NCBI GenBank assembly: GCA_013076295.1
Contig: RQOL01000465.1
Coordinates: 1 to 64,000, forward strand
DNA: 64,000 nt
DNA from: Sanderia malayensis
Lineage: Eukaryota > Cnidaria > Scyphozoa > Semaeostomeae > Pelagiidae
Reading direction: 5' to 3'
Part shown: positions 10,429-49,260 of the stretch, piece after piece
Layout of the letters: every line of letters starts with the position of its first letter
Numbering within the stretch: the stretch's first letter is position 1
The notes under the pieces: model-generated
Databases searched by the model: none
Told to the model about the DNA's origin: nothing
The model's input: the letters and a program-made list of their open reading frames with translations, nothing else
Position numbers and translations under genes: made by a program

Positions 10429-11103
10429 ATGAGTTATGACTTGAGATTTAAAGCACCTTTTTCAATGAATTTATCTGGAGTAAGCGGAAGCGGCAAAACT
10501 ACTTGGGTAGAAAATCTATTTAAAAATTATAATAATATAATCGATGATGGCAGGCAATATCCCAATCTCATGTGGATCTCAGGAACGAACCAGCCAGAGC
10601 TATTTGAGCATATTAAAAAAAGTTTTCTTGGGAATTGTAGATTTATTACTGAATTACCTGAAAACTTGTACGAAGAAATCGAGAGGTCAGACAAAAGATT
10701 AACTATTGTTGTTGATGATCTAATGCATGAAATTGCAAACTTCAAAGATTTGGGAAAATTGTTCACAAAAGGAAGATCTCATCTCAACATTAATGTTATT
10801 GTCATGATGCAAAATCCTTTCCCAAGAGGAACGGAAATGAGAAATTTGGCTCTCAATACTCAATATCAAGTTCTTTTCAAAAATCCTAGAGATAGAAGTC
10901 AAATTAGATTTCTCGCACGACAAATTATGCCCGCATCTCCTAAAACATTTCTTGGCATTTATAATGATGCAACAGCAAGAATGTATGGATATCTACTCTG
11001 TGATTTTACCCATTCAATGAATGAAGATATGAGATTTCGAACAAATATTTTCCCTCATGAAGCTCCCATGGCAGTGTACAAGTCTAAAAAAGGTTATAAA
11101 TAG
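10429..11103 (+). CDS. Polinton genome-packaging ATPase (FtsK/HerA type)
   Basis: The 224-residue protein has a Walker A motif GVSGSGKT at residues 17-24 and a Walker B strand RLTIVVDD at about 90-97, with a conserved-looking TKGRSHLNINVIVMMQN segment after it that fits the sensor region of the A32-like packaging ATPases. In Polintons and related viruses this enzyme pumps the DNA into the capsid. The length is typical. It is followed after 8 bp by the next gene and heads a tightly packed plus-strand gene run. Confidence 0.88.
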   Translation: MSYDLRFKAPFSMNLSGVSGSGKTTWVENLFKNYNNIIDDGRQYPNLMWISGTNQPELFEHIKKSFLGNCRFITELPENLYEEIERSDKRLTIVVDDLMHEIANFKDLGKLFTKGRSHLNINVIVMMQNPFPRGTEMRNLALNTQYQVLFKNPRDRSQIRFLARQIMPASPKTFLGIYNDATARMYGYLLCDFTHSMNEDMRFRTNIFPHEAPMAVYKSKKGYK

Positions 11104-11111
11104 CCATCTAT

Positions 11112-11342
11112 ATGTTTATGAAAACAGCAAAAATGACTTCTTTTGATAAGATAATGATACAACCTAGCGAATTATTTCCAACTGTTGATGAACCGGCGAA
11201 GAAAAAGCCCAAAAAGATCATAAATAAAGGAAGAAAGCCTAAAAAGCGTCTATCAGGTGGTAAAAGGAAAAGAACATACAGACGACGCAAGAAAAACACT
11301 ATAAATGATAAATTCTTAGAAATATTAATTGATTTGTTATGA
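11112..11342 (+). CDS. Small Lys/Arg-rich protein
   Basis: A 76-residue ORF whose middle is almost all lysine, arginine, proline and glycine (KKKPKKIINKGRKPKKRLSG), ending in a short hydrophobic helix. A nucleic-acid-binding virion peptide is the likely role, inferred from composition. Its stop overlaps the integrase start as ATGA at 11339-11342. Confidence 0.5.
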   Translation: MFMKTAKMTSFDKIMIQPSELFPTVDEPAKKKPKKIINKGRKPKKRLSGGKRKRTYRRRKKNTINDKFLEILIDLL

Positions 11343-12394
11343 ATCTAGAAAAGTTATATTCTGATCCTTCTGTTCCGGGTTCTCTTGGAGGTTTAGATAA
11401 AGCATATAGGGAATTTAAAAAAGTAATTCCTAATCTAACAAGAAAAGATGTTAAAGAGTGGAGTAAAACTAGTCTTGCATATTCATTGCACAGACCAAGT
11501 AGGAAGAACTTTAAACGTGAGCGGATACTAACTAATAACATTGATTATTTATGGGAATGGGATCTTGTTGATATGGCATATTTGAAAAAAGAAAACAACA
11601 ACATTACATTTCTATTATGCTGTACTGATACTTTTAGCAAGTATGCTTGGGTAAAGCCTCTGAAAAGAAAAACAGCAAAAGAAATTGTCGATGCTTTTAA
11701 AGAAATTTTATTGGAAAGAAAGCCCAAAAAGGTACGATCTGATAAAGGTACTGAGTTTTTAAACAAAGAATTTCAAACTTTGCTGAAGAAAAATGATATT
11801 GATTTTTACACTGCAAATAATGATGTAAAGGCCGCAGTTGTGGAAAGATTCAATAGAACACTTAAAGGAAGAATGTATAGATACTTTACAGCTAAAAATA
11901 CATTAAGATATATTGATAACCTACAAGATTTTGTTGATTCTTACAACAATACCTATCATAGATCTATTGGTATGAGACCTTCTGAAGTTAATCCAAACAA
12001 TGTGAGCACTTTTCGAAAAAAGCTGTTTAAAAAAGAAACTAAAAAAAATAAAAAGATCTTTAAAATTGGAGATTATGTAAGACTTAGTTTGAAGAAGAGA
12101 ATGTTTAAGAAAGGTTATTTACAAAATTATACTGAAGAAATATTCAAGATTTGCAAAGTATTTAAAGAAAGGTATCCAGTAATGTATAAAATTGAAGATC
12201 TCCAAGATGAAGAGATAGATGATCGCTTCTATGAAGAGGAGCTACAACATGTGTATCTTCCAAAAACCTTCGTCGTCGAGCATGTGTTGGAAACTAAGAA
12301 ACAAAGACGTAAAAACTTCTATTTAATCAGATGGAGAGGTTATCCTCCCCAGTTTGATGAGTGGATAGCTGAAAGTCAATTAGAGACAATATGA
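11339..12394 (+). CDS. Polinton integrase (RVE/DDE) with C-terminal chromodomain
   Basis: The 351-residue protein has a retroviral-type integrase core: first Asp in WEWDLVDM (about residue 75), second Asp in RSDKGTEF (about 136) and Glu in VVERFNRTLK (about 171). This is followed by a YNNTYHRSIGMRP segment and a C-terminal chromodomain (about 305-351) with RWRGYPPQFDEW. It catalyses insertion of the element; the chromodomain probably directs it to marked chromatin. Length and domain order are usual for Polintons, and the frame is intact. It starts and ends with 4-bp ATGA overlaps with its neighbours. Confidence 0.93.
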   Translation: MNLEKLYSDPSVPGSLGGLDKAYREFKKVIPNLTRKDVKEWSKTSLAYSLHRPSRKNFKRERILTNNIDYLWEWDLVDMAYLKKENNNITFLLCCTDTFSKYAWVKPLKRKTAKEIVDAFKEILLERKPKKVRSDKGTEFLNKEFQTLLKKNDIDFYTANNDVKAAVVERFNRTLKGRMYRYFTAKNTLRYIDNLQDFVDSYNNTYHRSIGMRPSEVNPNNVSTFRKKLFKKETKKNKKIFKIGDYVRLSLKKRMFKKGYLQNYTEEIFKICKVFKERYPVMYKIEDLQDEEIDDRFYEEELQHVYLPKTFVVEHVLETKKQRRKNFYLIRWRGYPPQFDEWIAESQLETI

Positions 12395-14774: not shown

Positions 14775-15253
14775 ATGAACAAAACCATCATTTTTGTACT
14801 GAAATCTGCTGTACTAAACAGATTGTTTTTTGCTCTTGTGGATAATTCTGCATTTAATGGATCTTCAGAACAAAACCCATTCAACTTTGTACATGGATCA
14901 GTTTCTGACGTTCAAGTGACTGTTAACAATCAAGAGGTCACTCCCCCTCTAAGATTGGATTATGATGATAATGACTATTTCGATGCCTATAGCCGTCTGT
15001 TGACTACTCTGGGCAATTCAGCTAGTCTGGTTGATTATGAGAGATTCAATCAAGGATCAGCAATTTATGGTTTGACTTGACACCAAAGGGAAATTGTGCA
15101 GATGAACAATACTTGCTTAAAAGAGAGGGTAACTTGAGAATAAGCATCAATTTTGCAATGGCTGTTGTAAGTTTGATGAATATTGTTGTTCTCAGAGAAT
15201 TTGACAGAACAATTAAAATTGATAGTCATAAAAACATCATTCGTGATTGGTAA
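14775..15253 (+). pseudogene. Major capsid protein gene, C-terminal remnant
   Basis: About 160 codons of the C-terminal end of the Polinton hexon-like (double jelly-roll) capsid protein remain. The segments DNSAFNGSSEQNPFNF, YDDNDYFDAYSRL and, after a frame change near 15070, VVLREFDRTIKID are in the expected order for this family. A full protein has several hundred residues, so most of both jelly rolls is missing upstream, where the 160-bp repeat sits. The reading frame also shifts once. The stop TAA (15251-15253) overlaps the protease ATG. Without this gene the element cannot make its own capsid. Confidence 0.8.
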
Positions 15254-15714
15254 TGATGGATGATATAACAACCAATAACTTACTTCCGAAACATGAAAAG
15301 CTACCTTATTTCCATGGTGTATTTGGAAAAGATGAAATCAAAAACATCGATGTGCATTCACTACCCTGCTCATTCATTTTCAATGAAGATAATTTTACTG
15401 GTAAAGGAACTCATTGGGTAGCCGTCTATATTAGCGATGATCGCGTTTTGGATTTTTATGATTCGTTTGGTGAACCTCCTATGCTGAAAGAATTTATAAA
15501 CTTCATTCATCCGTTCAAGTTTACTTACAATAAAACTCAAGTTCAATCCTATGAGAGTGCGACTTGTGGACAACATTGCATGTTCTTCCTCATTAATAGA
15601 ACAAAAAACGTTACAATGAACTCATTAATCAATAAATATTTTAATGTAAATGATAAGTTAAGTAATGATTTGTATGTTTACAATTATGTTAATAGAAGAT
15701 ATAGTTTAAAATAA
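15253..15714 (+). CDS. Adenain/Ulp1-like cysteine protease (maturation protease)
   Basis: About 153 residues, starting at ATG 15253 in a TAATG overlap with the capsid stop. The catalytic histidine is in GTHWVAVYI (about residue 55), the acidic residue in DFYDSFGEP and the Gln/Cys in SATCGQHCMFFLI (Cys about 110). This order His-Asp-Gln-Cys is that of adenovirus protease and the Polinton PRO proteins, which cleave capsid precursors. The frame is intact. It is convergent with the polymerase gene, only 27 bp away. Confidence 0.85.
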   Translation: MMDDITTNNLLPKHEKLPYFHGVFGKDEIKNIDVHSLPCSFIFNEDNFTGKGTHWVAVYISDDRVLDFYDSFGEPPMLKEFINFIHPFKFTYNKTQVQSYESATCGQHCMFFLINRTKNVTMNSLINKYFNVNDKLSNDLYVYNYVNRRYSLK

Positions 15715-15741: not shown

Positions 15742-18489
15742 TTAGAAATGTTCAAATAATGTCTTTTTCTGAGTATCTTTCTTCAGCAGCTTGGCATTTT
15801 CTTGCAAATAATGCCCATATGGCAGTGTGTTAAAACCATTATCAAGAATGTATCTCTTATCATCAAAAGAGCTCAGCGATTTCTTTGTTCTTTCTGTTGT
15901 GTAGATGGTATGATTGTGTGATTCAATATTACGCTGCCTGTGTGAATAGGTTTGCTGTTCTTTCAGGCAATCTAGGTAATCTTCATGCTTTATTTGCTTC
16001 TTTACCACATTTTTTTTAATTCCTTTCGCTCTTTTGATTGTTTGTCCATCATCGATTCTGAGGGTATACATCTTTGATCTCAATCCGACGAATTCTATCA
16101 TTTTCCCACCACTGAGCTCATCTTTCATTTTCCCAATAAATTTCTTGTTTCCTACAGAGTAATTTGGATGTTCTTTATCATAGTTGCTGAAATTGAATCC
16201 ATCTTCATGATCTTTCAATACTCTGTTAACTTGATCTTGAGACATTGGTATGTCATAGATGAAGCTATCAGTATCCATGTAGCATAGTTGAACGTTTGGA
16301 AGGTTTGGTTTTGCAAAGTTGTAGTGGAAATCATACATCAATGTCTTGCTAATATCTAATATGCTGAAACCAACATACATTGGTTTGTCGAGTTTAACTT
16401 TCCCAATCTTTTACTCTACCAAAAGTGTATCTTCATTAATTTCAATTACTCCATAGAACTTTGGACTTCTGACCCATCTTCTCAGGACTATACCATCTGT
16501 GCAGATTTCAAAACGTTGATGATTTCTTACGTTTTCCATCGTCTTTCCAAACACAGAATTGTTCATCAGTTTGAACAGATCTTTTTCAAAGTCGTTTCTT
16601 GCTTGAGTTCTCTTTTGAGTGTTCAAATCAATATATTTTTTCAACCAAAAGTTTTGCTTGAATTCAATAATCTCATGAACTTTTGTTAGCTTCAAACCCA
16701 ATTCCAAACACTGCTTCAAATTTCTTTCATGCATGGTGTATTCTTTTTTGTCATATAGATTTGGTATTAGCTTTGATGTTGACTTGAACTTTTTCCCATG
16801 AGCTTGTCTTTGATATTTTGATAACATTTCTGCTTGAACTTGTAATCTTTGTGGTGCTAATGGTAGATCTGCATGGTGATCATGTAACTCAGCTGGATAT
16901 TCTAAGTCAACTTTGAGAATGTAGCCAATATCTTCATCAGATCTTGACAACAAAGCGTCAATGTTTGTGTTTTTAATTTCTTCTTGTGTAAATTGTTTGA
17001 AACCACCATAAGGCATTGGCTGCGACATTGCCCATCCATAGAGATTGTTTGCATCTAAGTACATCAACGTGCTGTTTTCCGTCGATTCGGCATGACGTTT
17101 CACTGCTGTCGAAACACCCCCTCGAAAACCATCTTCAACCATAAGGTAAATGTCCTTCTTTTCTTCAGATAGTAATTCCAGCGTTACACCAGTCATCTTC
17201 AACATTGCATCCCATGCTAGTGAAGGAGCAGTTAGATAATGAGCAGGATCAAGCTTGTAGAATTTTAGACTCTGCTTTCTGAACGATTCAAATATATCAG
17301 CTAACAGCAGCACATGAGTTTTCAGATATAGCTCATGAAAATCTTGAAAGGTCTGACAATTGAAAAATTGCCAAACCTGTTGAGCATATGTATAATCTTC
17401 ATCACTGATGCTGGAATCATAGTGTTTGTTGTAAAATGCTTCTTTTGGTGGTAGAGATGTTTCTTGCATTTTTTCTATACTATCCACCCAGTCATAGGGA
17501 TAAACACCTTTCCTTGTCAGCAAATCAAACGCTTTCTTGACATCTGCATCTTCTGCTTCTGTTAAAACTCTCTTTGGTGGTATTTTCCAATTTCTATAAT
17601 CCAAAACATCTTCATTTTTTAGCGGATCTTTACATGCTACGCCTGGTTCAAACATGTTTTGACGTTCTCTTTCCAATTCTGTAACTCTTTCTCCTTCATT
17701 TCTAGGTATCTCAGGATATTGTTGTTGGGTGATGTCATCATGCAAGTATTTTTTCATAGATATGAAATTTTCTTTCGGCAGGTTGTTGGCTAGTGTTGCC
17801 AAGCTGGTGCTTAAAAATGCGAATGAATCAATGTATTTGATTCCATTAGTATTGGTATTTCTACCTTCTTCATTTTCTTCAGAATAACCATCAATCTGTG
17901 CAGTCATGATCTTTTCTTTCGAATTGGCGATGATCTTTGCATTTCTGCCATTCAAATTCTTCAGAATATGATGCATATCATATCCTTTTAGATTGTGAAA
18001 GACGATCGGGATGGTGTGATAGTTTGCTACTATATCCAGGTGTTTGAAGTTGCAATGCTTGCAAGCTGGACCTCTGTATTTTCCGGTAATGTGGCAATGA
18101 TCTCTGACTTTTTGTCTATCATTATCATTGAATAGTTGATTGCAACAATAGCAATGCATAGTCTCAGCATGTTCCGCATTTTCTTCCGGTGTTAATCTAA
18201 TCATTGGCATGGTTTTCTTGAATACTGTTCGTATTTCTTCATTTAGCTTATCTAAACTATTCATAAACACCTCCATGCAATCTTCTCGGGAATAACATTC
18301 CAACGGTTGTTGCCACCTATCATCGATTGACGTGACGTAAATACAATAACTGATTGGTTTGTGTTCTTCATAAGAAGCTCCCTTGTTTGAACTTTCCAAA
18401 ATAGATTCAGTATCTGCATATATGATGAATGGTAGCATGCATTGGTTCTTAAAATGTTCAAACTTTAATTCTGCGTCTTTGGGATATTC
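15742..18489 (-). pseudogene. Protein-primed DNA polymerase B, catalytic part
   Basis: On the minus strand this holds the exonuclease and polymerase domains. ADTESILES is Exo I with its Asp-x-Glu; FHNLKGYDMHHIL fits Exo II; DANNLYGWAM is palm motif A; KLMNNSVFGKTM is motif B; YMDTDSF is motif C. An in-frame TAA at 16411-16413 lies between motifs B and C and cuts off the last 220 codons. The 5' end is cut at 18489 by the Copia insertion and continues at 29021. In Polintons this enzyme replicates the element from a protein primer. The gene is doubly inactivated. Confidence 0.92.
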
Positions 18490-18704
18490 TGTTGAGAATA
18501 AGAATGACTCGATTATTATTATTATTATTACTACATCGACTGACTTGATTGACACTAGCTGCATACTTCGTTTCCTTCGCTTTATATTGTAACAGTTATA
18601 TTCTTTCTTTTTACGAACAAGATGTTTATACTTTGATTTCATTATATATCGCGTTTACAATTATATCAAAGTGTTTCTTCATTTGTATTTGCATATCTTT
18701 AACA
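18490..18704 (+). repeat. Copia 5' LTR
   Basis: Paired with 28805-29020. It contains an ATT triplet microsatellite near its start. Confidence 0.93.
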
Positions 18705-18795: not shown

Positions 18796-20526
18796 TTGGC
18801 GATTGCGACATCAGGGGACGAAACTAGCGGAGGTTTCAAAGTTGAGAAACTCACAGGAGATAACTATTGCTCATGGAAATTCCAAATGAAGATGGCGTTG
18901 GTTGGAAAGGATTTATGGGACATAGTCACTGGCGATGAAGTATTGGATGGAACAGCTGCCGTAGTTCAACAAAGAAAATTCCAACGAAGGGAAAATATTG
19001 CATTAGCCACGATTTGTCTGTCAGTTTTACCAAGCCTTCAAATTTATGTTCGTGCTGCAAAAAGTGCGAAAGAAGCCTGGGATAATTTGGAGCAGCACTT
19101 CGAGAAAAGGTCTTTATCTCAGAAGATTTTTTATCGCCGCAAACTTTATTCTGCTAGGCTAGAGAAAGGCACAACGATGTTGGAGCATGTGAATGGTTTG
19201 CAAACACTGTCCGACCATTTGGAAGCTGTGGGGGATCCGATAATGGAGAAGGATCTAGTCATCATTTTGATTAGTAGCCTAACGGAAGACTACAATCATC
19301 TAATCACGGCATTGGAGACCATAGCAGAAGACAGATTGTCTTGGGTTTATGTGCGTGATAGAGTTCTGCATGAATATGAAAAACTTCATCAACATGCTGC
19401 AAATGAAGGGGCTGTAACAAAAAATGACGACGCGCTATTGGTAATTAGCAAGAAGTCAGATGCCCAACGTAAGAAATGTTTTTATTGCCAAAAAGAAGGA
19501 CATTTTGCAAAGAATTGCTTCAAGAAAAAGGCCGATATGAAAGCAAAACAACGAGCCGAATCTGCAAATTGTGCGGACACCGAAGACGAACCGGACGATG
19601 GGTTTGCTCTGACAGCAAACAACGGTACCGAACAGTCTGGTGATGAATGGTTGATAGACTCAGGGGCGTCACAGCACATGACATATGAGAACTCTGGAAT
19701 GTTAAACTATGAGAAATTTTCAACACCAAGGAATATCAGATTGGCTGATAACAGGACCGTCCATGCGTATGGGAAAGGCAATATCAGAATTCCAATATAC
19801 GATGGCACAAAGAAATGGAATTTCATGTTGTGTGGTGTTCTTTTCGTTCCAGAACTGAAAAGGAAGTTGTTGTCGTTGTCTTCTATAATAGACAAAGGAA
19901 GCAAAATTTGCTTTGATGGGAAATCCTGTACAGCAACAAACAACGGTTTGTCGGTAGCCATTGGACACAAACAAGGAAATCTATTTAAGCTGAACAATAG
20001 AACAAGTGATTCAGCTTGCGCAGTTTCTTCACAAGACAGTAATGGCAAAATGAATTTATGGCATTCTCGTTATGCACATTTGGGGATCAATAACCTGAAG
20101 CTCCTGAAGGAGAAGTCAATGGTTGACGGGTTGGTCTTTAACTCAAAGGAAAGCATCGATTCATGCGAAATCTGTGCTAAAGGTAAGCAGAGATGCGAGC
20201 CATTTCCCAAGAAGAGTCAAAGTCAGACAACACAGTTATTGGAGTTGGTTCATAGTGATGTTGGCATAGTAAATGTTGATTCAGTGGGAGGATCTCGATA
20301 CTACGTGACGTTTATCGTTGACTTTTCAAGATACACTGTGGTGCATTTTTTAAAGAAGAAGAGTGAAGTTCTTGATAAATTTAAAGAATTTGTAGCAGTA
20401 ATGGAAAACCTCACAGAAAAGAAAGTCAAAGCATTGCGTACTGACAATGGAGGTGAATACATATCTGCAGCATTTCAGCAGTTTTGCTCAAATCATGGGA
20501 TCAGAAGGGAATTCACGATTCCAATG
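18796..20526 (+). pseudogene. Copia gag-protease-integrase (first half of polyprotein)
   Basis: The open frame encodes a Copia-type Gag (KLTGDNYCSWKFQMKMAL), a zinc knuckle CFYCQKEGHFAKNC, the aspartic protease motif WLIDSGASQHMT, the HHCC-like pre-integrase zinc domain (WHSRYAHLG, CEICAKGKQ) and the first integrase catalytic parts (HSDVG, RTDNGGEY). It starts with TTG where ATG would be expected (TTGGCGATTGCG), with no in-frame ATG before it, so the start may be mutated. The frame is cut at 20526 by the transposon insertion and continues at 26731. Confidence 0.9.
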
Positions 20527-20840
20527 TAGACAGGGCATATGCTCTAACCATCTACCATTCGGCCTAACCAGTGAGAACTCGACTGATTCTAGTAGTATTT
20601 TTCATGGGCTTTCAGAATCTGCCAGGTGACTTTTCGAAAAATGCTCCATTGTCACGTGATTGATGACGTAATTTAACGGTCAAATTCAAACTTTAAACCT
20701 GCATTATTTGGATATGGCTGGGTGTACATGGACCGGAATAGCACAGCAAGACTCAGTTTTAGCTCCTCTTTCGAATGATATATATAACAAGTATTTTTGC
20801 TGACATCTGCATTTTTAGTGATGACGTCATAATCTATATT
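20527..20840 (+). repeat. Left TIR of the DNA transposon
   Basis: Inverted relative to about 26420-26730. Both arms contain a perfect TGACGTCA palindrome and a TCACGTGA palindrome, classic bZIP (CRE) and bHLH-zip sites. Divergence between the arms is visible around 20710-20740. Confidence 0.88.
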
Positions 20841-21178
20841 TGGTATTTTTAAGATTCATTTTTTAACTGCTTCCGCGGCTATTCCTCTGATAATAGGGTT
20901 GGTATTTGTTATTCGAAATCCTTATCACTTTTGACACCTATTAGCAGCTCAAATATAATTACATTGCCTATTTTTAGATCTATATTAATTAAGGTTTCCA
21001 GACCTCTAAATAAATGCTTCCGTATTACTTGTCAGCTGGCAAACAAACATAACCTTAAGATACATTGTAGAAATACAATGTGAAAAATGTGAAAACAATG
21101 TGAATAACAATGTGAATACAATGTTTTAAATGTGAAAAAAATTAGATATTTAGAATAAACTTTGAAAAGGATTCTGAG
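20841..21178. other. Non-coding 3' region of the DNA transposon
   Basis: AT-rich stretch between the left TIR and the gene stop. It has short AATGTGAA repeats (about 21075-21130). No gene seen. Confidence 0.6.
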
Positions 21179-22582
21179 TTAAGGGAAATAGTCACTGTCG
21201 GAAGAATCCATCATTTCCTCTTCAGAAGTTGTGAAATCTTGCTCCCATTCTGAGCTGGTGGAATGCTTCTCATCACCACTGGACCGAGATTCTGAAACTG
21301 CGGTGGCCTTCGCTAGGAATTCTTTCCAGCTCGGCTTCAAATGCTTTGGAAATGGACCATCGTTTGTATCGCTCATATCAGTTTCCGAGTCGGCATCCTG
21401 TTTTTTCTCAATCGCAGAAATATTTTTTTTGGTTTTTCTGGGCTTTTTTGAACTGGTCAGTGATGGGGGTAACTGTGCTCCTGTGTACCATGTAGGTACC
21501 AATCGATTTAATGCTTCATCGTAATGCCAGCCGCTACTCTTTGGATCAGGTCTTGTGACTACCTTGTCTAAGCAACGCAACCAAATAAAACAAGTCAAGT
21601 TAACACGCAGCAATTCTTGATCAATGGATTTGGGGTCAGCTGGGATGACGGCAGACGACTTTGTCTTTAAACCCTGGTACAGACGAATTCTCGTATTTAC
21701 ATAGCTTTCATCGATTTTCCCACTGTACATTACTGTCTGCACAAAACGTTTTGCGTCGATCTTTATGGTGTCTGAAAGACTTTCATCTTTTCCGAGATCT
21801 TGTATTAGATCACAGTGCGTTTCCTTGGCCATAAGCTTCTTAATCACTTTAATCTTTCCCACGTTATATTTGTATGCAGTTGCGTCTGAACCTGTTATGG
21901 CATGCACTTGCGGAAGGGCATTGCAAATTTTTGACCCAAATCTTTGGATTATGTTTCGAATCTTGACATATTTGTTGTTGTCGATACACATGTACCATTC
22001 TTCAGAAGGACTACAGTTTTGCATTGCGTAGACAAGTAATACGAACACGTCCGTATCTTTGGCAACAACTACCACAGCTGTGTCGATAGAACTAGCATGC
22101 AGTATTATCTTCGTATCTGCCTCTTCGTGGTTACTCCTTGGCAAAGCTTTTACAGAGGTTTTTGAAATTTCCCACGCTTCATCTTTACAAGTTATGATTA
22201 ATGGTATTGTCAGGAGTTTCCTTCCTTCTGCACTTCTGAAAAAGTCCGCCGCAATTTGAATCAGGTTTTCTTTATTCGCATCGTTATGTAGAAATTCCTG
22301 CCAATCTTTACCTTGCATCATCTTTTGCTCTACACTCTGAAGATGTACTCGTCTTGAAGCCTGTCCTCGTTTCGCTCTTGTGCTTGATTTTGTGCTATCA
22401 TCCAAGTATTGATCATTGATAATTTCAATTTGAATGGCCTTTGCATCAACTGGAGGTGTTGCATATTGAAGGACGCTTGCCAGCCATAGCTTATACGTTT
22501 CCTTTGGTTTGATTGTGTGAAAAAGGGCCATTCCATCGATGATCCATCTTGCCTTTTGTGGTGGCATTTCAACAAGTGCGTT
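21179..22582 (-). pseudogene. Transposon protein C-terminal FEN1/PIN-like nuclease domain
   Basis: After the in-frame TGA the frame continues to 21179. Metal-binding positions line up with those of the FEN1/XPG group of PIN-fold nucleases: IDGMALF (first Asp), a DQYLDDSTK...R segment where FEN1 has VFDG..K...R, NHEEADTKI (acidic pair, as in the EAEA motif), AKDTDVFVLL (Asp-x-Asp) and ITGSDATAY followed by a GK-rich helix where the helix-hairpin region lies. The last 110 residues are acidic and Ser-rich. A nuclease that acts on transposon ends or on replication intermediates is a plausible role. ATG 22567 could start a separate 462-residue protein. Confidence 0.65.
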
Positions 22583-24360
22583 TCACTCCTTGATCATAAA
22601 GTTCCGAAGAACTGCCTTGTCTCCTTGTCGCAGTTCATTGCCAGGAGTTGCCAGACTGAGAGGTATAGTAGTCAAGGGAAACGCAAATGCTTCTTCCATA
22701 GACGCTGCTTTTCCTACCAATAAACCAAAGGCTTGACGGTCTTCTTTCAATACTGAGACAGCACTTGGTGTCTTTTTGGGTTTTTCCATGCCCGTTTGCA
22801 ACTTTACTCTCTTTATGGGAGAAAAGTAACTTTCATTGCCATCAACGAGGCGATTCTGAATAAACTCCTTCAGCTTTTTATCACCAATTTCAGGGGCGTG
22901 AAGTACGTCATTGATAACTTTGGCATCAACTTCAGCTCCGATACATATGACTTTTGCCGGGCAATCTGAGAAGGGATCGCACTTGTATAAGCGAAGCTTA
23001 TCTTTAAGTGCATTAACATTCTTCAGGTGGTTACTCTTTCCCGAGTCAGTTTGTTCCTTATGTGTTGACGAAGTCTTCAGCCGTAACTTGTCTCGAATTG
23101 CTGTTCTTAACTTGGCATGTATATGAACTGTCTTGATCCATTTGTTTGTAGTATCTACATTCGTGCTGTACCCAGATCTAAATGGGCCAGCTGTTCCCTT
23201 TGTTTCTCTATTAAAATACTCGGTTACTAAATCGCCGTGAACTGTTGCAAATTTTTCACCAGAATAGTTGGCACCGAATCCGCCGATTCGTAAATCTTCA
23301 TAGGCTGCATTGTTACTTGATTTAAGATCACACAACATAACATGCTGATATGACAAGTAACGCGAATAATTCTGGTGGTCAAATGCAAACACAAACCTTA
23401 GCATGTCTCTTTCTGCCTGCAAATGTTTTTCGAAAGATTTTCCCCGGACTGCTGAGACTAGGGCCAATAACGAAGAAACATCTTGAAGGTAAGCAACTGT
23501 CATTTTTCTCTCTGTTCCTCCAACGTTGCTTGTCATTTTAGAAAAGATGTCAGTGAAGGACTCTAGCTCAATGGTCGTCTCAAGTAGCTCGGCTGACGGA
23601 CTCTTCCTAATTGCAACCAAATTGGCGAGCAGTTGCTGATCCATGTCTCTATACGAATCAGTAATATCTTCCGCATAAAGCTGAATAATTGCATCGAAAG
23701 CTTCTTTATTTAAACGCATGCATCTGTAATAATGCTTTCCCGAAAATGCCTGCTCTACAGATCCGGCTGAAATTGTACCAGCGTCTACGAACCAGTTGCG
23801 GTTTCCCATGCATGCGTGTCGCTTGTAGATTAAGCGTTGCCTAACTCTTAGCTGGTGAAATCCACCCATCAAAACAATTACGTTCTTGTAACAGTCACCG
23901 TGTTTCCAGATGATCTGCACAAGTTTAGAATACACATCCTCGTCAGCATGCGCGAACATATGCTTTAACCCCAGATCGTCAATGATATCGTTGAGTGTGT
24001 CAAGATAATTCTTACAAACTGAAAAATCCGGAGGTTGAGAAATTACGGGCATGTATTCTATTAGCGACTTCTGTTGATCAACACTGCTAACAGTTCTATT
24101 AAAGGCGGTCCATGATCCTAACAAGGGTAGTTCTTCGCTATCGCTACTTGGAACTCCATTTGCAAGAGCCCATAACACATCTTTCTTGAAACATTCTATG
24201 AGTAGGTTCTTTTCCTCATCATCTTTGTACTGTGGAAATCGAGGTGGTTCTTTCCTCTGGCCGAGTGAATAATGCGGAATATCTTGCTGCAATTCGAATT
24301 CATTTGTGTTCAGTTCATCACCAAGATTAGGTTGCTGTTGTTCATTTGCATGCTCTCCAC
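22583..24360 (-). CDS. Transposon protein exon 2, middle part
   Basis: About 590 residues of the transposon protein. Recognisable landmarks only by recurrence in similar elements: VIVLMGGFHQLRVRQR (about residue 190) and an SVEQAFSGKHYYR segment. I see no DDE or RVE catalytic triad with confidence. The frame ends at TGA 22585-22583 but remains open in the same frame beyond it, so the nuclease part (21179-22582) probably belonged to the same protein. Confidence 0.65.
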
Positions 24361-24764
24361 CTGAAACAGAATGGAAAGAAACTTCGTTAAAATGCTCGTT
24401 ATACATGATAATTAAAATTAAAGTACTTAAATAATAAAATATTCAAACTTTTTCCAGGTAATAAAAACAATATAATGCATATTTTTCCAGCGTCAGAGGT
24501 TCGCTAGGTACTCAGTGGAGGAATGCTCATGGTTCATTCATTAACTTCTACCTTTAAACATTTGCATGTGCCAATAAGTTAATTTTTCTGATCGTATAAG
24601 TGCTTCTGAGTACTTTTTCAAGAACAAACAATTTTTAGAAAGAGTCAGCATATCGTCAATGACTATTGGACAGATGTAAAATAGCTGAACATATCTGATA
24701 ATACTATTTCGTGTTCTTATCAACTATGCAAGCATAAAAAACAAATAAAACAATTTCAAAATAC
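24361..24764 (-). other. Predicted intron in transposon gene
   Basis: 404 bp with donor GTATTT at 24764 and acceptor TTCTGTTTCAG ending at 24361. Both flanking exons join in the same frame (phase 1), giving a glycine codon across the junction. Confidence 0.75.
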
Positions 24765-26286
24765 CTGTTAAGGTTGGCTGAAAAAGTGTTCGATTGGTGT
24801 CATGCGTGGTGCCAGAGCCGGTCATCGTTTCCTGTCTACCATCGTTATTATCAATGGACGAATGAAGTACAGTTGCATTTGTAAATCTCTTGTGACTTGG
24901 TGGCTGATTAGAAGACCAAAGGTTGTTGTATCTAAGAACAGCGTTGTATGAAATCCCATGACCAAGGCTATGGAGATATTGAGTCGCTTCTTTGCTCCCA
25001 GTCAATCGGTGAATAGTCAAGCCCAGTATAGCTTGCTTAGAATTTTCCTGACGAGATATTAGAGACTCCCAGTCCATGGCAGTGGACCATATTTTCGGAG
25101 CCACGTTAGCGGATTCTGTCCTTGCATAACCGTGTTCATTAAGAGTAATATTTGGGTACATTGTGGCGTATATAACGTTGTACAGCTCTGGCAAGGGGCC
25201 ATTGTCAAAATTTTCGATTAAGGCATCAGGAGATTGTGGCAATGACTCATAATTACGCTGCTTGATCTTTTTTCTTATGAAATTACCGAAGGAACGCACA
25301 AAATCTTCATCTTTGAGGCAATGCCCCTTCAACGTTGCCACGCTGTATTCGCAAGGATTCACCGTGCAGGAATGGACAATAATGTATTTGCCAACGGGAA
25401 AAAATTCAATCTGATCTCCGAATTCTGCAACAAGTTTTCGTTTTAATGTTGAAGTTGAAGTCACAATAGGATCCATGTCATTTTCTTCGCTAAATAATTC
25501 TACATCACCAAGTAAATGGTGCAATAAATAAGCTTCTTTCTTTCTGAGGATCTTGATGCGGACAGCTCGAAAAAAATCGGACATTATATCAGCTTTTTTC
25601 TGTTCTATTTCTTCGTCGTTTTTCGTCGATGGCAAAGGATTTATGGCAAATTTTACATAGCAAGGTTTGTGATAATACACATCTATCGCAAATATGTCGA
25701 AGGACTGTCCTCCTTGTAAACGCTCAAGTCTTCTAGCTGCTTCATGAAATCGGTGGCTGGTATCGGCGAGAAAGATTTTTTGACGCTCTAATAGGCGGGC
25801 CTGAGATGTCTTGAGCTCACATCTACCAAGGCCACCCTCAGCATATGTATTACAATCTGTCGCAGTTCTTTGCGCACAAATAAAACATTCTCGTTTGCTT
25901 TGTTCTTGTTTAGTTGACCTTTGTCGTAAACGTATTTTTGAATCAGAATCAGACTGGTCGAAATCTACAACATTTTGATCAGTAATATTTTGAGAATTAT
26001 TTCGCTGATATGCAGGAAGCTTTGTAGAAAATTCAGTCCGACAACTTTTATGGACCTTTCCAAATGGCTCGTTAGCATGCTGAACCTGTTTGTAGACCTC
26101 CCCAAACAAAAACCTCTTGTCTTCAATATCAATGACTATATCACTCCAGTCTTTCGCTAAAGTCTTAAACTTTTCCCATCCCTGACTGCCAAGAGCTTGG
26201 AACTTTTCGTTCTTTTTGATGACGATTTGGCACAATAAACATTTATTTCCACCAGGATCTATACTTAAAAACGACGAAGCTGCCAT
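24765..26286 (-). CDS. Transposon protein exon 1 (Cys/His-rich N-terminal part)
   Basis: Starts at ATG 26286 and runs about 507 codons to a splice donor ACAG|GTATTT at 24765/24764. It has a zinc-finger-like set CLLCQIV...HKSCRTEF near the start and a second cluster CFICAQRTATDCN at about 135. The rest is helical with no known domain, including SLGHGISYNAVLRYNN near the end. Unspliced, the frame stops 14 codons into the intron; spliced, it joins the next exon in frame. Its job may be DNA binding, inferred from the Cys/His pattern. Confidence 0.7.
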
Positions 26287-26419
26287 GACATGTTCACATA
26301 AATGAAGGCCAAACTTGACTGCACAGTTACATCGTGGAGATTTGCATAATTCTCTGCTGAGATATCACCACAAAGTCACAACCACAGCTGTTTCAAATTT
26401 CAACTGTCAAGTCATTACA

Positions 26420-26730
26420 AATAGACTATGACGTCATCACTAAAAATGCAGATGTCAGCAAAATACTTTTTATATATATCATTTGAAAGAGGAGCTAAAA
26501 CTGAGTCTTGCTGTGCTATTTCGGTATACGTACGCCAAGCTATATTCAAATTATGCAGGTTTAAAGTTTGAATTTGACCGTTAAATTACGTCATCAATCA
26601 CGTGACAATGGAGCATTTTTCGAAAAGTCACCTGGCAGATTCTGAAAGCCCATGAAAAATACTACTAGAATCAGTCGAGTTCTCACTGGTTAGGCCGAAT
26701 GGTAGATGGTTAGAGCATATGCCCTGTCTA
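26420..26730 (-). repeat. Right TIR of the DNA transposon
   Basis: Partner of the left TIR. It lies upstream of the minus-strand gene (ATG at 26286), so it probably also contains the promoter. Confidence 0.88.
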
Positions 26731-28785
26731 ATGAGTCCTCAACAAAACGGCGTTTCAGAGAGGATGAATCGCACGTTAATGGAGAGTACAAGATGCATGT
26801 TGCATCATGCTGAATTGCCAAAGATGTTTTGGGCAGAGGCGCTAAATACAGCGGTGTACTTGCGGAACAGAAGTCCGACAGTTGCACTTGATGGTGTAAC
26901 ACCTTATGAACGTTTCTTCAGCAAGAAGCCAGATGTAGGAAACTTGAAAACATTTGGATGCAAGGCATTTGTGCATATTCCAAGTGAAAAGAGAAGTAAG
27001 TTGGATGCAAAGTCAATCACCTGTGTGTTCATTGGATATGGAACAATGAGCAAAGCATTCAAGTTTTACGACCCTGTGAAGAAAAGAACGTTCATTAGTA
27101 AAGATGCAAAGTTCTTGGAAAACGACTTTAATTTCAAGCAACTGTGCAGTGAAAGACATGACAATGAACAAGATTTGTTCATCCTGCCTGAAGTGAGCTC
27201 TGAAGAAAACGAGTGTGAGCCAGAAAATCACAACCGACCTGAAGGTGATTTGCCAGCCGATGCTGTTCGTGTAATTGATGCTGATCGTGTAATTGATGCT
27301 GATCGTGTAATTGATGAACAAGAAGAACCTAGACAATCCACAAGAGTGAGAAATGCTCCAGAGAGACTTGGAATAATCACTGGAGATTGGTGGACAGATG
27401 AAGGTTTAAACTGTTCTATTGCAACAACTGATAATGTTGAACCAACAAGTATCAATGATGCACTTAATGGCATGCACGCTCCACATTGGAAAAAGGCCAT
27501 TGAAAGTGAATATCAATCGCTTCTTAAGAACAGAACATGGGATTTGGTCGACCTACCAGCTGCAAAGAACCTGGTTGGATGTAAATGGGTTTTCAAAATC
27601 AAGAGAAACTCTGATGGCAGTATCAACAGATACAAGGCTAGACTGGTCGCGCAAGGATTCTCGCAAGAAGCAGGAATCGATTATGATGAGATATACGCAC
27701 CAGTTGCAAGGTATAATTCAATCCGCACGGTTTTAGCCGTGGCAAATGCATTGGATTATCAAGTACATCAGATGGATGTAAAAACAGCATTCTTAAATGG
27801 AAAACTTGATCAAGACATTTACATGAAGCAACCAGATGGGTGTATAGATGAGAAACATCCAAACAAAGTTTGTAAGCTTCAAAGAAGTCTTTATGGCTTA
27901 AAACAATCTGCTCGATGCTGGAATCTAGAGATGGATAGATATCTAAAGTCAGCAGGCTACAAGCAAAGTGATGCAGATTATTGTATCTATACCAAATCAA
28001 AGAATGATAAAGAAAAGAGAAGAAGTCAAGTCATCATAGCGCTCTATGTAGATGACATAATCATAGCATCAAACGACACAGATATGTTGCGAGCTGAAAA
28101 GAAATCATTATCTGAAAAGTTTGAAATGGAGGATCTGGGCGAAGCTCACTACTGCCTAGGAATGGAAATCAACCGTGATCGTGAGAAGAAAATTCTACAG
28201 ATTAGTCAAAAAGCCTATTTGGAAAATATGCTGAAGAGATTTGGCATGAATGACTGCAAAGCAGTTGCAACACCTTTGGAAGCAGGAGTAACCTTTACCA
28301 AATCAAGTGAAGGTGCCAAATCAGTCAACCTCAAAGAATATCAAGCAGCAATTGGATCTTTGAATTATGCTGCAGTCGCAACTAGGCCTGGCATATCTAC
28401 AGCGGTTGGAAAGTTAAGCCAATACATGTCTAATCCCTCACATGAACATTGGCAGGGGATTAAAAGAATATTCCGCTACATTAGAGGGACATTGGATTAT
28501 CATCTGCAATACGATGGTAACCAAACAAATTTACAATTACAACCGACTACGCTGCACGAAGACAATCAGGGAGCCATTGCATTGTCGAAGAACCCCAGCA
28601 ACCACTCGAGAACAAAACACATAGATGTTAAGTACCATTTTATCCGTGAAACAATTCAAAGTAAGCAAATTGCAGTTGAATATTGCAAGACGGACAAGAT
28701 GGTTGCAGACACGCTCACTAAAGGATTACCGAAGCACAAGTTCCAGGAGCTACGTTCATTGATGGGTATAACAACACGGAAATAA
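26731..28785 (+). pseudogene. Copia integrase end, reverse transcriptase, RNase H remnant
   Basis: The frame resumes with NGVSERMNRTLMES (integrase Glu), then reverse transcriptase with KARLVAQGFSQ, DVKTAFLNG, GLKQSARCWN and the catalytic YVDDIIIAS box. The RNase H part jumps from LQYDGNQ to LHEDNQGAI: the segment that normally carries the SDADWAG aspartate and the AEAEY glutamate is missing in frame, so RNase H should be inactive. The frame ends DTLTKGL...MGITTRK. A purine-rich tract AAGTGGGAG precedes the 3' LTR. Confidence 0.92.
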
Positions 28786-28804: not shown

Positions 28805-29020
28805 TGTTGAGAATAAGTATGACTCGATTATTATTATTATTATTACTACATTGACTGACTTGATTGACACTAGCTGCATACTTCCGTTTCCTTCGCTTTA
28901 TATTGTAACAGCTATATTCTTTCTTTTTACGAACAAGATGTTTATACTTTGATTTCATTATATATTGCGTTTACAATTATATCAAAGTGTTTCTTCATTT
29001 GTATTTCCATACCTTTAACA
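28805..29020 (+). repeat. Copia 3' LTR
   Basis: Partner of 18490-18704, preceded by the polypurine tract at about 28796-28804. Confidence 0.93.
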
Positions 29021-46515: not shown

Positions 46516-49260
46516 TTATTTCCGGTTATAGGTTTCTAGTAACTCGTTCGGCAAATGTGCATCGTCCATCCAAAGTGATTCTCCATTCCTTAATAAGACG
46601 AAGTACTTAGTCTCTAAGCGACCCTTATCATTTCTTGACCTCATCTTATCCATTATTTCTACTACCTCTTCGCATATTTTCTCTGTATTGTCCGCTTTAT
46701 CTGGCTTTAGCCGATTGACGTGTACTACTGGGTGCCTACGAGAGTTGCCCATCTGCAACTTAACATTTTCTTTCGAAATAATTTTTTCGATGATGTAGGG
46801 TCCTTCCCAATGATTTCTGTCTAGCCCTGTTTTCTTTTCTCCTGCTTTAAAATAAACCGAGTCTCCCGCTTTGAATTCGCATTCTTCAGCTGTGTGTTTC
46901 TTGTCGTAAATCGCTTTATGCCGGTCTCTCTCTGTTTGATTCAGTTCGCGAACTAGTTCGTAAGCTTGTCTTAGGTTATTCTGCCTTTCTGTAACAAAAT
47001 CGTCGGTGTATAATCGTACAGGTGCCTGAAATTGCACGCTTGGGGGCACCTTGAACTGTCTCCCAAACATAAGGAACACGGGAGTCTCTTTTGTAACTGT
47101 GTGTGGTGTCATACGATACGCAGTCACCATATCGGGTAGAAATACGTCCCAATTTGTTTTCCCCTTATCGATTACAAGAGATAAAGCAGTTTTTAGCGTT
47201 GAATGGAATCTTTCACATAAACCGTTCGCTTGTGGATGATACGATGTTGTTGCAGAATGATTTATTCCTATGATTTTACAAGCTCTTTTTACTAAATCGG
47301 ATAAAAATGCTGCTCCACGGTCGGATAAAATCGTCTTGGGATATCCAAAATCATTTGCAAATGATTGAATACATTCGATGACTTTATACTCGTTTGCCTC
47401 TTCCAGTGCATAGGCAGCTGGAAATCTGGTGAAGTGGTCCTGCATCGTCAGAACGTACCTGTTGCCTTTCGTAGTCACTGGTAACGGCCTGACGAAATCG
47501 ATACCTACTATTTCTAACGGTGCCTGGACTTTTATTGGATTGAGTGGTACCGTCTGCGGTCTCTTTGGGGATTTCCTTGCCGCACAGCTTTTACAATTTT
47601 TGCAATGTCGAGCAACATCTTTCTTCATGGAAACCCAAAAATAATTGTCCCTTAACCGTGAAAAGGTTCTCATGAACCCTGGGTGCCCAAGCTTGTCGTG
47701 GCCATATACGAGTAGCTTTCCGATTTCCTTCTTGGGTACTACTAATTGCTTCCTCGGCCTTGTCGAAACTCCTCTTACCTTTGGAGACCATAGATGATAT
47801 AGAACATCTTCTTCTAAAATATACTGACTTGAGAAATTTCTTATTCTGTCGCTACTCCTTTCTTCGCTTGGGAGTATTCCGTGCGACAGAAAATCCTTCA
47901 GCTCCTTAACATCGCTGTCTTCATCCTGCGAGCGACTGATGTCGATTGCTTCTAACGCTGCGACGAGGAATTTGCTTTCACAGCCTTCCTGTTCCTGCAA
48001 ATCGGACGTAATTGGGCATCTTGACAACGCATCAGCGTTCCCATTTGTTGTGCCTGCCCTGTGCTTTACGATGAAAGAATAACCTTGTATTTCGCACATC
48101 CATCTTTGGATCATTTGGTTTTTCGGTTGCATTTTGCATAGCCATTTCAAAGGGCAATGATCAGTTACCACAGTAAAACTAGGTTGTCCATATAGGTAGT
48201 GATGAAAGTATCTGATGGCCCAAACCACCGCCAAACATTCCTTTTGGATCGTTGCGTAATTTTGTTCGCTAGACTTCAATTGCCTACTGGCGTACGCTAT
48301 CGCAACCTCCTTCCCATTTTGAATTTGAGCTAATACCGCTCCCAGACCGCTATTACTTGCATCAGTTTGTAGTATAAAAGGCTGTTTAAAGTCTGGGCAA
48401 CACAATACAGGTGCATTCATCAACCTCCGTTTCAACTCATTGAAAGATTCCTGTGCCTCATCTGTCCATCGAAAAACCGCTGGCACCTTCGTTTTTGTGA
48501 GGTTCGTGAGTGGTCTTGCGACACTTGCAAAGTTTGGGATAAACTTTCTATAATACGAAGCTAAGCCCAGAAAAGCGCGGACATCCGTTCGATTTCCTGG
48601 TACTGGGAAATCTCGTACAGCAACCATTTTTGCGGGATCAGGCGATACTCCCGCGCCATTAATTACGTGTCCTAAGTACTTCACCTCCGGCTTTGCCCAT
48701 TGGCACTTGCTTAGCTTTATTGAGAGACCAGCATCTTTTAAGCGACTCAAAACTGTCTCAAGCCTGTCCTGGTGTTTTGCGAAGGACTTCCCAAATACGA
48801 TGATATCGTCGAGGTAAACTAAACACTGGCTCCAGTGAAGCCCTGTCAAAACGAAATTCATCAGCCGCTGAAATGTGGACGCTGCGTTTGATAGACCGAA
48901 GGGCATTACATTGAATTCGTAATGGCCTTTTGCCGTAGAGAATGCAGTTATTTCTTTGGAGCTTTCCTCCAATGGCACCTGCCAATAACCGCTCTGTAAA
49001 TCCAGCGTAGAAAAATAATTTGCGCCCCCTAAGGCATCCAAAGTTTCGTCGATACGAGGAAGAGGGTATGCGTCCTTTTTGGTGACCAAATTAACCTTCC
49101 TATAGTCAACACAAAAACGGGTTGAACCATCGTGTTTTTTAACCAAGACGATAGGAGACGACCAAGGACTCATTGACGGCCTGATGACTTCTTGTACAAG
49201 CATTTTTTCTACCTCCTGATCTATTATTTCCCTTTTAGTTATTGGTACTCGGTAGGGCAC
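46516..49260 (-). CDS. Gypsy Pol: reverse transcriptase, RNase H, integrase
   Basis: 914 codons, in the -1 frame relative to protease. Reverse transcriptase has RFCVDYRKVN, FSTLDLQSGYWQ and the active-site YLDDIIVFG. RNase H follows with LQTDASNSGLGAVL and a TDHCPLKWL segment. Integrase has the HHCC zinc domain (GHPGFMRTF...CKNCKSCA), catalytic Asp in GIDFVRPLP, Asp in LSDRGAAFLSD and Glu in NGLCERFHSTLK, plus a C-terminal GPY/F-like EGPYIIEKI. All catalytic positions are present. The frame starts at a non-ATG codon just after TAA, so frameshifting from protease is expected, though no classical slippery heptamer is seen. Confidence 0.95.
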   Translation of the reverse strand: MPYRVPITKREIIDQEVEKMLVQEVIRPSMSPWSSPIVLVKKHDGSTRFCVDYRKVNLVTKKDAYPLPRIDETLDALGGANYFSTLDLQSGYWQVPLEESSKEITAFSTAKGHYEFNVMPFGLSNAASTFQRLMNFVLTGLHWSQCLVYLDDIIVFGKSFAKHQDRLETVLSRLKDAGLSIKLSKCQWAKPEVKYLGHVINGAGVSPDPAKMVAVRDFPVPGNRTDVRAFLGLASYYRKFIPNFASVARPLTNLTKTKVPAVFRWTDEAQESFNELKRRLMNAPVLCCPDFKQPFILQTDASNSGLGAVLAQIQNGKEVAIAYASRQLKSSEQNYATIQKECLAVVWAIRYFHHYLYGQPSFTVVTDHCPLKWLCKMQPKNQMIQRWMCEIQGYSFIVKHRAGTTNGNADALSRCPITSDLQEQEGCESKFLVAALEAIDISRSQDEDSDVKELKDFLSHGILPSEERSSDRIRNFSSQYILEEDVLYHLWSPKVRGVSTRPRKQLVVPKKEIGKLLVYGHDKLGHPGFMRTFSRLRDNYFWVSMKKDVARHCKNCKSCAARKSPKRPQTVPLNPIKVQAPLEIVGIDFVRPLPVTTKGNRYVLTMQDHFTRFPAAYALEEANEYKVIECIQSFANDFGYPKTILSDRGAAFLSDLVKRACKIIGINHSATTSYHPQANGLCERFHSTLKTALSLVIDKGKTNWDVFLPDMVTAYRMTPHTVTKETPVFLMFGRQFKVPPSVQFQAPVRLYTDDFVTERQNNLRQAYELVRELNQTERDRHKAIYDKKHTAEECEFKAGDSVYFKAGEKKTGLDRNHWEGPYIIEKIISKENVKLQMGNSRRHPVVHVNRLKPDKADNTEKICEEVVEIMDKMRSRNDKGRLETKYFVLLRNGESLWMDDAHLPNELLETYNRK

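Follow-up and report, generated by a model that had tools for sequence, protein, structure and literature searches.

What does a flap-type nuclease do at the end of a DNA transposon protein, and which part of that protein would cleave the DNA? The question is raised by an element in a 64,000-nucleotide stretch of the scyphozoan Sanderia malayensis (assembly GCA_013076295.1, contig RQOL01000465.1, positions 1 to 64,000), hereafter the window, to which coordinates refer unless a contig is named. A preliminary description of the locus had placed a FEN1/PIN-like nuclease in the C-terminal part of a transposon protein, had seen no convincing DDE triad elsewhere in it, and had offered the choice between a nuclease working with an unrecognized transposase core and a PIN-fold domain that is itself the cleaving enzyme. 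We find that the element, which occupies 20527-26730 with its transposase on the minus strand, is very probably a decayed cut-and-paste transposon of the Academ type (AcademX-like), with zinc finger-like Cys/His pairs, a DDE core, and a FEN/EXO1-like 5'-nuclease in one spliced protein. The pairing of a cut-and-paste core with a flap nuclease has already been described for Academ transposons.

The Nuclease Frame Is the Tail of a Spliced Transposon Protein

The nuclease open reading frame (ORF), 462 amino acids at 21179-22567 on the minus strand, contains IDGMALF, DQYLDDSTK, NHEEADT, AKDTDVFVLL, and ITGSDAT in the order that had been claimed. It is in frame with 22583-24406, the sole break being a TGA at 22583-22585, and when exon 1 (24765-26286) is joined to exon 2 (21179-24360) through a GT...AG intron (24361-24764), all on the minus strand, the frame runs for 1,568 codons with no stops other than this TGA, at codon 1100, and the final one. 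Exon 1, which ends at the GT donor, carries zinc finger-like CxxC...HxxC pairs, whose Cys and His columns are invariant in the 8-11 rows of alignment A1 with residues there, and also holds, toward its end, the first Asp of catalytic type, within a DNND motif (codons 479-482, ~24841-24852) recognized by DNxD conservation.

When the assembly, 184 Mb in 918 contigs, was searched with the ORF, at least 92 scored matches were obtained, and 20 stretches were fetched. Five of them (L010-L013 and L017) have uninterrupted single frames of 1,545-1,624 codons, and long database relatives (e.g. 1,567 and 1,625 amino acids) span the same parts of the protein. In the relative P0004 the FEN-like match begins at residue 672, ~17 residues ahead of the point equivalent to the ATG of the window ORF. 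Given this early start, the single TGA, and the relatives that read through, a separate gene starting from that ATG was ruled out; the nuclease ORF is the tail of the transposon protein and not a stand-alone gene.

The C-terminal Domain Resembles FEN1 and Its Relatives

Predicted models of the C-terminal domain (21497-22618, minus strand, end points mapped from P0004) match solved structures of FEN/EXO1/XRN-type 5'-nucleases, so that the FEN1/PIN-like character first proposed from motifs is upheld at the level of predicted fold. As in FEN1, EXO1, XPG, and XRN, the domain has seven carboxylates in the same order and at similar spacing and a Lys/Arg pair 7 residues apart, the listed fold alignments having 9-15% identity; unlike these enzymes, it has no Pfam XPG match and is fused to a transposase. 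The carboxylates were paired with those of FEN1 by order and spacing only. We take the gateway-type residues Lys-60 and Arg-67 to correspond, by spacing only, to FEN1 Lys-93 and Arg-100 (Arg-100 being named also in the title of a structure entry).

In the spliced protein these residues are D1116, D1157, K1165, R1172, E1254, D1256, D1276, D1278, and D1333. Within the genome each of the carboxylates D11, D52, E149, D151, D171, D173, and D228 is retained by 14 or all 15 of the sequences in an alignment (A3) of the window with 14 of the 20 stretches, which were picked for open frames and of which some are mutually near-identical; L009, L014, L015, L017, L027, and L028 were left out as near-identical to a kept row, interrupted by stops, or partial matches. 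The same seven are present in 18 of 18 rows with the residue when database relatives of 20-63% identity are aligned (19 rows, the window and 18 of 35 proteins found). A wider set of 47 rows (A5; the window, 10 stretches, and 36 of 81 proteins) gives, among rows with the residue, D11 in 35/36, D52 in 34/35, E149 and D151 each in 46/46, D171 in 46/47, D173 in 47/47, and D228 in 45/46, with the Lys/Arg pair at 36/36 (K60) and 35/36 (R67).

Over the nuclease domain, four pairs of diverged families have saturated proportions of synonymous differences (pS, 0.77-0.81) and proportions of nonsynonymous differences (pN) of 0.22-0.34, and the distance between the two points to purifying selection. Within young families the two values lie nearer to each other (both 0.007 between the window and the copy most like it; pN 0.008-0.016 and pS 0.009-0.042 in four other young pairs; one pair identical), as expected because copies drift. 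The complete metal site and the selection together support a catalytic nuclease. A chance match of motifs was ruled out by the fold matches, the conserved carboxylates, and the purifying selection.

A Conserved DDE Triad Lies Upstream of the Nuclease

The middle of the protein (23200-24867, minus strand, split by the intron, end points mapped from P0004) corresponds to the DUF6589 region and likely forms an RNase H-like catalytic core with a helical insertion, as judged from conserved columns, the order of strands and helices in the P0004 model, and DUF6589 matches. The match of the window itself is weak (25.7 bits, with a Pfam cut-off of 27); relatives P0001, P0002, and P0004 score above the cut-off, and P0032 is matched only weakly. 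In the P0004 model (mean predicted local distance difference test score, pLDDT, 83.6), strands 55-63, 76-84, and 188-195 are followed by a helix, strand 223-227, a helix, and strand 249-253, then by a long helical stretch and helix 464-476. Asp-63 closes the first strand, Asp-228 (of P0004) follows the fourth, and Glu-469 lies inside the last helix, an order that fits a DDE core interrupted by a helical insertion.

In an alignment of 28 of the 35 proteins found, these columns hold the residue in 20/20, 26/27, and 25/25 rows that have one, and each is invariant in 15 of 15 long proteins, eight of them from the same genome; Asp-60 is Asp in 18 of 20. The equivalents in the spliced window protein are Asp-482 (Asp-479 for Asp-60), Asp-647 (23942-23944), and Glu-888 (23219-23221), the first Asp lying in exon 1, upstream of the intron, and a GxxH following the second. 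A putative catalytic DDD/E triad is thus conserved in the core, where the preliminary description had seen none. That description had named as grounds against itself an RNase H-like middle region with a conserved DDE, together with a C-terminal part of non-PIN fold; of these the former is supported, by a conserved DDE in a predicted RNase H-like strand order, though no solved transposase matched strongly, and the C-terminal part still matches the PIN/FEN fold. RAG1 family proteins gave no match in the genome, in a search of a kind that cannot show absence.

Ends of the Element and Target Duplications

The terminal inverted repeats (TIRs) at 20527-20837 (plus strand, 5'-TAGACAGGGCATATGC...) and 26421-26730 (minus strand) are identical in 298 of 311 columns with one gap, and both start TAGACAGGGC. 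The trinucleotide ATG stands on either side, and excising the transposon with one ATG restores the frame of an interrupted Copia element, ...FTIPMSPQQNGVSERMN... These repeats and the flanking target site duplication (TSD) confirm a DNA transposon as the source of the protein.

Our end-motif script demanded TAG..AGG, and the evidence for common ends therefore comes from a motif-free search, in which 15 of the 20 stretches showed inverted repeats flanking the ORF; 14 of the 15 pairs start no more than 9 bases from a TAG.NAGG end. Exact 3-bp duplications flank all 14 resolved stretches and vary in sequence (AAA, ATA, TGT, TTA, AAT, TAT, TAC, TTT, CCA, and TCT); with the window copy counted, 3 bp is the length in 15 of the 16 copies for which both ends could be read. 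Contig C471 (7415-10328; L033 and L034) holds a ~2.9-kb internal-deletion derivative with the same ends (TIR 96%) that has lost most of exon 2 and is flanked by a 10-bp inverted repeat, not a 3-bp direct duplication. A second nuclease ORF, 98% identical, lies on contig C679 (L009), where the fetched stretch includes one end only and ~2 kb of the element.

Probable Assignment to Academ and Comparison with Other Superfamilies

Academ is listed among the DDD/E superfamilies of Repbase in PMC9587614. As described in PMC10045372, AcademX makes duplications of 3 or 4 bp and AcademH of 9 or 10 bp, lengths that its author ties to the encoded nuclease and helicase, respectively; on the role of the nuclease, that passage offers only this suggestion about TSD length. 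The window element shares with AcademX (Repbase; Kojima 2020, as described in PMC10045372) a conserved DDE, an encoded nuclease, 3-bp TSDs, and TIRs, and a comparison by description only disclosed no difference. It is the agreement of DDE, nuclease, and 3-bp duplications with these published features that leads us to an AcademX-like assignment; AcademH, by report of the same superfamily, differs in its 9-10-bp TSDs and its helicase (PMC10045372). Nuclease and DDE core occupy the same protein both in the spliced window frame and in the long relatives, and the nearest named relatives of the window protein are from animals. Kapitonov and Jurka reportedly described the Academ nuclease as of XPG type.

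Other nuclease-bearing systems fit less well. KolobokE, KolobokP, and KolobokD, as described in PMC9587614, likewise associate a DDD/E transposase with a nuclease, but of other types (PD-D/ExK, His-Me finger, and DEDDh) and with TTAA 4-bp TSDs, whereas the duplications of the window family are varied and 3 bp long. Tn7 likewise assigns the non-transferred strand to a nuclease of its own, but TnsA has a restriction endonuclease fold, TnsA and TnsB are two proteins, and the system is bacterial.

Several observations weigh against our reading. For the nuclease, P0004 had no match at E ≤ 0.001 by Foldseek alone (the best was Rad2, 0.054), unrelated rows stand among the matches of the window ORF (arginyl-tRNA synthetase, 3.6e-3; SUMO E1, 0.012), no PDB chain was matched at the sequence (profile) level, and Pfam XPG_N and XPG_I were unmatched at E ≤ 1 in all 15 members scanned; a fold match in company with this negative makes the domain FEN-like by fold and places it outside those Pfam families. 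For the core, no solved DDE transposase scored well in Foldseek (HzTransib ranked 21, E 3.8; RAG ranked 43, E 5.4), in a search made with the whole P0004 model, from which the strand order was also read. With matches to solved transposases this weak, the RNase H reading draws on the conserved residues and on the order of the predicted strands. The long same-genome copies L010 and L011 lack a DUF6589 match at E ≤ 1, the inverted-repeat pair of L024 lacks the common end motif, and the C471 derivative lacks the 3-bp duplication. The Academ assignment comes from published descriptions, and no helicase-bearing relative links the core to AcademH: none of 80 proteins, from a search whose scoring was limited to the 7,995 candidates with the most words in common, has a helicase in precomputed Pfam lists. 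Our Pfam scans of the three ORFs of the window and six relatives or copies likewise showed no helicase family.

A distinct superfamily, as yet without a name and like AcademX only in its nuclease and 3-bp duplication, would also explain a likeness known from description, and the C/DxxH signature is quoted, in PMC9587614, for five superfamilies that do not include Academ. That position reads GxxH here, which neither supports nor excludes Academ, and the published features open to comparison (conserved DDE, nuclease, and 3-bp TSDs) all agree, so that we consider a separate superfamily very unlikely.

Some further observations concern the family and its genome. P0034 (Myxine) is a distant family match joined to MOV-10 helicase domains, which we took for a fused gene model, the alternative being a real fusion. 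Family proteins P0083, P0102, and P0127 are filed under a Candidatus Thiodiazotropha metagenome-assembled genome (MAG), Capsicum chinense, and a Flavobacteriaceae MAG, and are probably animal contamination, at a guess. The genome itself has four XPG_I matches, and KDZ fragments were also seen.

Insertion Context

The Copia element that received the transposon is represented by a 5' gag-pol part (18796-20529, plus strand; Pfam Retrotran_gag_2, Pol_BBD, and rve) and a 3' pol part (26719-28785, plus strand; RVT_2), the first ORF bases of the latter being transposon sequence at the junction. Long terminal repeat-like sequences of 216 bp at ~18490-18704 and ~28805-29020 are 96.8% identical. The nesting extends over 9165-30158, with Copia apparently inside a Polinton-like element whose parts include an A32-like ATPase (10429-11103), an integrase with a chromodomain (11339-12394), an adenovirus protease-like ORF (15247-15714, below the cut-off), and an endonuclease VII-like domain within 16411-18642. 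A retroelement pol with RVT_1, RNase H, Integrase_H2C2, and rve (Pfam) lies at 46516-49260 on the minus strand.

What the Nuclease May Do

In the mechanism that we propose, the DDE core would cleave the 3' ends and join them to target DNA across a 3-bp stagger, and at the element ends the 5'-nuclease would cut or trim 5' flaps or the 5' (non-transferred) strand; TnsB and TnsA of Tn7 divide the labor in a similar way. That the DDE enzyme cannot do without the fused FEN/EXO1-like domain, which would cut the non-transferred strand or trim the 5' flank at each end, is on balance unlikely. A nuclease that is a passenger or accessory, serving repair, replication of the element, or removal of flaps after insertion and dispensable for end cleavage, would depart from the proposed scheme only in its last, conjectural step, and we hold it to be quite possible, if short of probable. 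FEN1 and EXO1 are enzymes of repair and replication, in keeping with such a role, and AcademH is described, in PMC10045372, with a helicase in place of the nuclease, so that the core apparently functions with a different partner too; against this stand the purifying selection on the nuclease domain and its presence with the core on one polypeptide in the long relatives.

The PIN-only mechanism, in which end cleavage falls to the FEN/PIN domain itself and only a binding or structural role is left to the DUF6589 region, could appeal to the conserved nuclease carboxylates and to fold matches in which the nuclease far outscores the core. Three conserved acidic residues of the middle region nevertheless occupy the D-D-E positions of a predicted RNase H-like order, DDE enzymes leave such short, exact duplications next to TIRs, and FEN-type enzymes hydrolyze and are not known to join strands. 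Because a conserved D-D-E is present upstream, such a mechanism is not needed; we rejected the PIN domain as sole transposase for the default reading and regard it as extremely improbable.

Together, predicted fold and conservation support a selected 5'-nuclease beside a conserved DDE triad. Because the genome has many diverged copies, and five of the 20 fetched keep frames of more than 1,500 codons, what the nuclease does in Academ elements is directly testable. If the proposed partnership holds, a single polypeptide would excise the element by combining a DDE enzyme that joins strands with a structure-specific flap nuclease. Such a protein would be the eukaryotic counterpart of the TnsA/TnsB split, though its nuclease is unrelated.
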